A DNA stretch of 64,000 nucleotides from an uncultured Prochlorococcus sp. (lineage in GTDB: Bacteria > Cyanobacteriota > Cyanobacteriia > PCC-6307 > Cyanobiaceae). Shown one piece after another: positions 21,070 through 23,247 of the stretch. The notes under the pieces were generated by a model. It saw only the letters and a program-made list of their open reading frames with translations, searched no databases and was not told where the DNA came from. The DNA is taken from NCBI GenBank assembly GCA_902538515.1, contig CACBFH010000001.1, positions 62,001-126,000 of the forward strand, read 5' to 3'. Position numbers and translations under genes: made by a program. Numbering within the stretch: the stretch's first letter is position 1; the number at the start of each line of letters is the position of its first letter.

Positions 21070-21819
21070 TTATTTTTGAATTGTATATTGCCATTCGTTA
21101 TTTTGAAATAAATTTTTTTCTCTAAGTAACTGTAATTTCCTACTATTTATTTTTATAACTATCCCATTAGTTGGATATTTCTCGAATATTTTTCTCTCTA
21201 ACCAATTTTTTTTATATATTTGGATTTCGTTTGTATGATTTGTGAAGTAGCTGTCAGGGGTGCTGAAGCCACATTTTTTAAGATAGTTAAGGGTTTCGTA
21301 TTGATTAAGTCTTCCATTAAGTATTTGGAAACAGCAAAAGCGGAGACTTTCTCCAATCCCTTTCTTATTATTGAGGTATTTTCTTGTAATTCTTTGGGAA
21401 ATGCCGGCAACTTGGTTTGTAGCGTATAGTTCACCTCTAATTTGAAAATCTCGTTTGATAGGAATACAATTGGGGACATTTTTAATTTGTTCAATTTTGC
21501 TTGAGACATCAAATCCTTTTTTTGAAATAGCTTTATTAAACTTGCCATCTATATATCTAATTGCAATAGCACAGCCATCAATTTTTGGTTGAATGCTTAA
21601 TCTAGTTTTTGGAATTAAACTTTCCAAAAATTCTTTATAGTTTTCTTTAGCTAATTTTGGCAAAAGTTTATTATTTTTTTGATTAAAGTAGTCATGCACT
21701 GGATCATCAGGAATAAAAAGCTTTTCAAGTTGTTTAAATGCATCATCCGAAATTATGCCTTCACCTAATCTGTATTGTTCATCTAGATACTTAACATCTT
21801 TCACTAATAAATTATTCAT
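21070..21819 (-). CDS. NAD+-dependent DNA ligase-like protein (adenylation domain only)
   Basis: KIDGCAIAIRY (KxDG), RGELYATNQ, GIVIKINSRKLQ, terminal WQYTIQK resembling LigA PxWAIAYK. Confidence 0.7.
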   Translation of the reverse strand: MNNLLVKDVKYLDEQYRLGEGIISDDAFKQLEKLFIPDDPVHDYFNQKNNKLLPKLAKENYKEFLESLIPKTRLSIQPKIDGCAIAIRYIDGKFNKAISKKGFDVSSKIEQIKNVPNCIPIKRDFQIRGELYATNQVAGISQRITRKYLNNKKGIGESLRFCCFQILNGRLNQYETLNYLKKCGFSTPDSYFTNHTNEIQIYKKNWLERKIFEKYPTNGIVIKINSRKLQLLREKNLFQNNEWQYTIQK

Positions 21820-22074: not shown

Positions 22075-23247
22075 ATGAGAAAAATGTCATTTTTATTAAA
22101 AGCCCAAAATACCTGGGAAAATTTTGCGAAATACAAAATTAATGATTACGCAAAATTAAGAAATTTTGATTTTGGCCCAAATAACGAAAGTTCAGTTTCA
22201 AAATTATCGCCTTTCATTACTCATAGAATATTATCGGAATATAATATGATTCATGATATTAAAAGTAAGTACAAAATAAAAAATTCAACTAAATTTGTTG
22301 AGGAAATATTTTGGAGAGTTTACTGGAAAGGGTGGATGGAAAATAGACCTAAAGTATGGAGAAATTTTATTTCAGAAAACAATCTCGATTTTGATTATGA
22401 GCTATATGAAAGTGCAATTAATGGCAATACAGAATTAGATTTTTTTAATTCTTGGGTCCATGAATTAAAGCAGTACAACTATTTGCATAACCATACAAGA
22501 ATGTGGTTTGCAAGTACTTGGATATTTAATTTAGGCCTTCCTTGGCAATTGGGAGCAAAGTTTTTCTTTAAATATCTTTTTGATGGTGATGCTGCATCTA
22601 ATCTTCTTAGCTGGAGATGGGTCGGAGGATTACAAACGAAGGGAAAACAATATCTTTTTTCATCATCAAACCTCAGAAAATTTTCAAATAATAGATTTAA
22701 TTCAGAAAAAATAAGTAATCAACAAATTTTGCTTGAAGAATCTAATCAAATACCATTAGAAGATGAGATTTATAAAAATGATATGGACCCTAAATCAGAT
22801 AATCTGATTATGTTTGAAAATGATCTTCACCTTGCAACCCTTAAAAATTTACTTAAAAGCTATAAAAAAGTATTTATTATCCTTTTAAAAAATGAACATA
22901 GACAAATTAAATTGTCTGAATCTGTTTTGAAATTTAAACAAGATTTGGTCTCTGAATTTGTAGAGTATTTTGATAATGTTGAACAGATTGATCCTTATTC
23001 ACTGGAATATACATTTAAAAATACCAACGAAATAGACATTATTTATCCTGGAGTGGGAGAAAATTATGATTTCATAACTGAGTTTAAAAATTTACACAAT
23101 AAAAAAATTTTTAACCTTGTTAGAGATGAAGATTTATTTGCATGGCAATTTGCTAAAAAAGGGTTTTTCAAATTTAAAGAAAACATTCCGAGGATTAATC
23201 AGAGAATATTTGAAAATTTTTCAAAAAATAATTTTCAACTTAGTTGA
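22075..23247 (+). CDS. cryptochrome/photolyase FAD-binding domain protein
   Basis: LHNHTRMWFASTWIFNLGLPWQLGAKFFFKYLFDGDAASNLLSWRWVGGLQTKGK. Confidence 0.8.
   Translation: MRKMSFLLKAQNTWENFAKYKINDYAKLRNFDFGPNNESSVSKLSPFITHRILSEYNMIHDIKSKYKIKNSTKFVEEIFWRVYWKGWMENRPKVWRNFISENNLDFDYELYESAINGNTELDFFNSWVHELKQYNYLHNHTRMWFASTWIFNLGLPWQLGAKFFFKYLFDGDAASNLLSWRWVGGLQTKGKQYLFSSSNLRKFSNNRFNSEKISNQQILLEESNQIPLEDEIYKNDMDPKSDNLIMFENDLHLATLKNLLKSYKKVFIILLKNEHRQIKLSESVLKFKQDLVSEFVEYFDNVEQIDPYSLEYTFKNTNEIDIIYPGVGENYDFITEFKNLHNKKIFNLVRDEDLFAWQFAKKGFFKFKENIPRINQRIFENFSKNNFQLS

Follow-up and report, generated by a model that had tools for sequence, protein, structure and literature searches.

The locus raises the question of what a LigA-like adenylation domain encoded by itself is doing in a Prochlorococcus chromosome, and whether it is a working minimal enzyme, one part of a split ligase, a remnant of a host ligA, or something else. 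The window, by which we mean the whole 64-kb stretch of DNA analyzed, lies on contig C1 (62001-126000) of a genome of 1.15 Mb (74% complete) whose named relatives are Prochlorococcus, including the cultured MIT 9401 and MIT 9201; the labels HL and LLI used here for genomes are ones that we take from genome size and such named relatives. The open reading frame (Table 1) belongs to a gene, family A, that is present in most genomes of the genus with ~90% conservation and is therefore not a chance ORF. DNA_ligase_aden is the sole Pfam domain recognized (2.5e-16, 60.4 bits against a cut-off of 27), the NCBIfam LigA models are matched in their N-terminal part only (score of 54.6 against a cut-off of 444), and a profile search against the PDB matches the LigA adenylation domain at 3.8e-19. 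An AlphaFold2 model built from an alignment of the window and locus proteins (pLDDT 82, pTM 0.75) also retrieves LigA adenylation domains from the PDB with Foldseek (E to 3e-16, TMq ~0.70).

The intact frame, the Pfam match and the modeled fold bear out the preliminary description of a stand-alone LigA adenylation domain that ends before the OB fold and has no zinc finger, HhH or BRCT domain. The protein terminates after motif V, and there are no OB, zinc finger, HhH or BRCT remnants within the 64-kb window, including the frameshifted downstream remnants expected of a degraded ligA. The adenylation domain is not all that is present, however, and the protein is composed of a shortened Ia segment and the LigA NTase domain. 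The N-terminal stretch YRLGEGIISDDAF is an abridged NAD+-binding Ia domain (~residues 10–36, with Y16, R17, D25 and F28) which, in alignment with E. coli LigA, keeps the equivalents of Y22 and D32 and has Y35 replaced by F, position 23 (Tyr/His) by R, and D36 by K.

Table 1. Positions of the mini-LigA gene and its motifs in the 64-kb window, and of the ATP-dependent ligase gene of the same genome. Fractions refer to the 47 homologs of the window clade.
Feature	Position	Strand	Comment
Mini-LigA ORF (family A)	21070..21819	-	249 aa; ATG at 21819, TAA at 21072-21070; intact
Shortened Ia (NMN/NAD+-binding) segment DEQYRLGEGIISDDAFKQLE, residues 13-32	21724..21783	-	from alignment; signature YR..D..F(D)
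Motif I, K79-I-D81-G82, nucleotidyl-acceptor lysine (E. coli K115)	21574..21585	-	invariant in 47/47
Motif III, R128-G-E130-L-Y (E. coli E173)	21424..21438	-	E invariant in 47/47
Motif IIIa, SQRITRKYLN (R200 kept as R143; R208 replaced by N150)	21370..21399	-	N in 45/47
Motif IV, YPTNGIVIK (D285 replaced by N218; K290 kept as K223)	21151..21177	-	N in 47/47
Motif V, WQYTIQK, protein end (K314 replaced by Q248)	21073..21093	-	E in 39/47, Q in 8/47
Pmar-Lig of the window genome	G000:C17, locus L206, 4630-5958	-	in the ligA slot between c47 and c48/valS

The catalytic residues are unevenly preserved in the window clade (47 homologs; E. coli LigA numbering). K115, D117, E173, R200 and K290 are invariant in all 47 (window K79, D81, E130, R143 and K223), and the KxDG lysine of motif I that had been singled out earlier is present together with D81 and G82. 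D285 is replaced by N and K314 by E or Q in every one of the 47, R208 by N in 45 and the NMN-site D36 by K in 46, and in 45 the residue right after the lost motif V position is a lysine. The later LigA-type motifs named in the preliminary description fare differently, with RGELY (motif III) intact but GIVIKIN and WQYTIQK partly damaged, because ‘TNGIVIK’ has Asn at the motif IV Asp position and ‘WQYTIQK’, which is motif V, has Q at the lysine position and K one residue further on. The roles of K115, D117, G118, E173, D285, K290, K314, R200, R208 and D36 are presumed here from the mutational literature on E. coli LigA, not from assays of this family. K115, D117, G118, E173, D285, K290 and K314 are mostly kept in the other minis, even at 23–32% identity, with exceptions that include K290 changed to R in a group of phage sequences and one loss each in L112 and L142. 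In the basal sisters of the window clade R208 is already lost, with D285 and K314 still present, so the losses were stepwise. A minimal adenylating or end-processing enzyme, as first proposed, is plausible for the family, but unlikely for the window copy because its whole clade has replacements at four residues on which NAD+ use, adenylation or AMP transfer is expected to depend.

Judged by its sequence, the window protein is a member of a clade that we define here as mini-LigA, with lengths of ~245–290 aa, the Ia signature YR..D..F, an end after motif V, and no OB fold; almost all minis have YR..D..F(D) in their Ia segment and W/Y-x-x-A-x-K at the terminus. In an ML tree of 53 sequences, a 98/99 branch divides the minis from full-length LigA (cyanobacterial, phage and T5) and the window clade is supported at 100/100, although there are several long branches and the deeper branching order is uncertain. 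A second gene of 249 aa (paralog B), ~50% identical to family A, accompanies it in most cases, the window genome among them (C13:3281-4012). Paralog B keeps all of the listed catalytic residues, has a pairwise dN/dS of ~0.17, and looks catalytically intact in the window genome. Divergent minis are present in HL genomes, in six of six LLI-type genomes tested (g26), and in one g45 and one g33 genome, and minis are also on ~22 IMG/VR viral contigs, counts that come from degenerate-pattern scans and depend on conserved stretches. In the six LLI-type genomes (G164:C1:411852-417288 and the equivalents in G062, G109, G127, G140 and G146) there is a pair of short minis beside full LigA, with open frames of ~212 and ~229 aa on opposite strands and ~4–5 kb apart. 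Three phage contigs (L188, L189 and L211) code for full-length NAD+ ligases with divergent motifs that are distinct from the minis, and are possible material for tracing the origin of the family. Among isolated phages, the best named matches that we inspected are full-length (KB12-38, MaMV) or T5-type rather than OB-less minis; several plasmid matches carry a LigA annotation, and we found no description of an OB-less bacterial mini-LigA in the open-access literature.

The dN/dS of the window gene is 0.31, compared with 0.07–0.25 for six neighboring genes, a ratio that is affected by the oddly low synonymous divergence of the gene but indicates that it is weakly constrained, under relaxed yet still purifying selection. 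Together with the invariance of motifs I and III, R200 and K290 in 47/47, this value indicates that the protein has kept some function, perhaps binding or catalysis at a residual level. The family A gene is interrupted in G007, G014, G018, G033, G216, G231 and L078 and represented only by small remnant-like fragments in G015, G060 and G068, although the genomes are mostly draft assemblies and single-genome interruptions may include assembly errors. The residue losses, the relaxed selection and the broken copies in relatives together argue that the window copy is probably decaying and non-catalytic. Synonymous divergence among HL genomes is 0.07 for the window gene and 0.14–0.35 for the six neighbors, with a minimum at codons ~91–210; an overlapping alternative-frame ORF at 21198-21548 was considered as the cause and rejected, as it is open in just 36 of 42 homologs.

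The window copy is in a fixed core locus common to HL genomes, with MurD, SDR, family A, photolyase-like, DoxX and PPOX genes (neighbor calls are from a simple ORF picker) and a tRNA-Val 3.6 kb off, and there are no adjoining integrase or phage genes. The divergently transcribed neighbor at 22075-23247 codes for a photolyase/cryptochrome-like FAD domain (PF03441) with an additional C-terminal part and no N-terminal photolyase domain, and its adjacency to mini-LigA is conserved in HL genomes. Elsewhere in Prochlorococcus, tyrosine recombinases adjoin divergent minis at four loci (L141, L143, L158 and L162), a serine recombinase, assigned from sequence, is beside the mini at L163, HK97-type capsid/protease genes are by the minis at L141, L143 and L163, and a primase-helicase gene is at L142. 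At the HL loci L141, L143 and L163 an HK97-type fusion of protease and capsid, an HTH gene and a recombinase gene are all found close to the mini, and these regions look like satellite- or prophage-like elements. On phage contigs, some minis are in a block with a helicase, a VRR-NUC-like nuclease, a C5 methyltransferase (from sequence), a primase/helicase and a minor tail protein, and others precede a RusA resolvase. Our reading is that mini-LigA is a phage and mobile-element family with domesticated copies.

The host lineage provides an unusual setting for such a gene. The LigA OB fold is in none of 37 genomes of the genus, compared with 23 of 23 other cyanobacteria, and is not found in the window's own genome at its 74% completeness; in a wider genome set there are only small LigA matches in all of the genus genomes and a LigA-sized match in all those from other genera of the family. 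The preliminary description had suggested looking for a full-length ligA elsewhere, and with the full LigA model only three of 88 HL genomes (87 with ≥90% completeness and the window's own) are positive, namely G206, G215 and G205, where the gene is interrupted. The other 85, including the window's own, have no ligA. The ATP-dependent ligase in HL genomes is Pmar-Lig (phmmer 1e-284 to 6rau), which is present in 81 of the 88 and missing from the three LigA-positive ones, and the two ligases never occur together in the genomes searched. Four HL genomes have neither, and an assembly gap is likely because the flanking gene is missing there too. The 17 genomes tested from low-light-type genera have LigA without exception, and none gave any ATP-dependent ligase match.

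Synteny provides the strongest evidence for replacement of an essential ligase in place; a single slot holds either one enzyme or the other. In the gene order c44-c45-c46-c47-X-c48-ValS, X is LigA in G205, G206, G215, G164 and G173 (L152-L154, L156 and L160), and is Pmar-Lig, ~10–20 bases past c47, in G000, G022, G015, G066 and G177 (L205-L209). LigA of this lineage thus appears to have been replaced by Pmar-Lig, which presumably now joins Okazaki fragments in HL genomes. The G205 LigA gene (L154, G205:C1:1546002-1548002) is split by stops and frameshifts in a genome that also has no Pmar-Lig, and represents either sequencing error or a transitional state. All bacteria are said to carry an NAD+-dependent LigA (PMC4220977, PMC3290774) and Pmar-Lig was described as additional to the replicative NAD-dependent enzyme (PMC6698739), but neither statement is true of these genomes. 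We found no report of LigA loss in HL Prochlorococcus in the open-access literature, and small LigA-like genes like that of the window, which could be mis-annotated as ‘NAD-dependent DNA ligase’, may have masked it.

Loss of LigA in the host lineage might suggest that the window gene is a truncated remnant of the host ligA, but we give this next to no credence. The minis form a clade apart from cyanobacterial LigA, including that of the HL genomes that keep it, minis and full LigA coexist in LLI genomes, and the ligA locus is elsewhere and occupied by Pmar-Lig; tree and synteny together rule out a degraded host gene. A role as the adenylation subunit of a split ligase, with the OB, HhH and BRCT domains encoded by a separate gene as in phages T5 and PR1, is very improbable. 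The T5 NAD+ ligase is split, and identity to its subunit A is 28% across the whole mini length, but that subunit retains the OB fold that the minis do not have. Moreover, profiles made for the LigA OB fold and for the other LigA domains, which recovered five of five controls (T5 subunits A and B among them), matched no ORF in the ~50 mini loci or the window, and the LigA OB fold is absent in 37/37 genus genomes, so that the partner with LigA DNA-binding domains proposed in the preliminary description has no candidate near these loci. It is somewhat less improbable, but still unlikely, that the window protein is an active minimal adenylating or end-processing enzyme that tolerates D285N and a shifted motif V lysine, with K249 standing in for K314. 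The lysine after the lost motif V position (45/47) and the invariant motif I lysine are in keeping with such activity, yet four independent positions expected to be essential are lost clade-wide and mostly kept in other minis, and selection is relaxed.

A further possibility, to which we give a minor share of belief, is that the protein is functional but non-catalytic; it would bind NAD+/AMP, adenylated DNA ends or other proteins, and might serve as a regulator or act as a decoy or dominant-negative against active phage or mobile minis. Continued purifying selection, fixation of the locus in nearly all HL genomes, the invariance of K79, D81, E130, R143 and K223 despite the other catalytic losses, and the unusually low synonymous variation at codons ~91–210 are all consistent with it, but the gene is disrupted in or absent from several near-complete genomes, evolves faster than its neighbors, and has neither an identified partner nor a conserved operon. 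More tentatively than our preferred explanation, but with greater weight than this, we consider it possible that OB-less Ia + NTase proteins are a real phage and mobile-element enzyme class that uses NAD+ to adenylate nucleic-acid ends or another target, and that in HL Prochlorococcus, with its ligase exchanged in place, paralog B has stayed active and the window copy has become non-catalytic with a new role.

The explanation that we favor, with reasonable though not strong confidence, is that the window gene comes from a stand-alone Ia + NTase family circulating in phages and integrative elements, has become fixed in the chromosome and is decaying, and is most likely no longer efficient in its chemistry. 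The family probably consists of NAD+-dependent adenylating enzymes, in which the motif I lysine would take up AMP from NAD+ and the AMP would then be handed to a nucleic-acid 5′ end, with joining completed by another ligase or a putative partner. Having lost Asp in motif IV, Lys in motif V, Arg208 and Asp36, the window clade would no longer carry out this chemistry efficiently, and the window copy has probably lost all or nearly all of its catalytic activity and is domesticated. Its gene would then persist under relaxed selection in a LigA-less lineage.

If active, mini-LigA would rank with the smallest enzymes known to adenylate with NAD+, and would put to the test how much a covalent nucleotidyltransferase can do when it has no OB lid. 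The host lineage is itself an exception to a textbook rule, since most genomes of a hugely abundant photosynthetic lineage have no LigA, and an ATP-dependent ligase is at the ligA position in the loci examined. That ligase, Pmar-Lig (PDB 6RAR/6RAU; PMC6698739), which occupies the ligA locus here, is a complete DB-AD-OB enzyme of a different cofactor and ligase class from mini-LigA. The closest known likeness is to the adenylation domain of bacterial LigA (Ia + NTase; PDB 3jsl, 1tae and 7k72), which the window protein resembles in fold and in the motif order I-III-IIIa-IV-V; however, unlike LigA adenylation-domain constructs it is a natural 249-aa protein with a shortened Ia and no OB fold, and without D285, K314, R208 and D36. 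The T5-type split NAD+ ligase (LigA/LigB; PHROG 3359; PR1 heterodimer 9hu3/9i5i) likewise has a small separate phage adenylation module (28% identity), but T5 subunit A (323 aa) has an OB fold and a LigB neighbor and the minis have neither. One viral NAD+ ligase reported to have no OB fold or HhH domains, and of uncertain activity, is alike by description only, whereas the minis form a diverse clade shared by phages and Prochlorococcus. Solo Nlig-Ia domains are a further case of an NAD+ ligase piece living alone in phages (PMC9503650); these have no NTase domain, whereas the minis keep both Ia and NTase and dispense with the OB fold.
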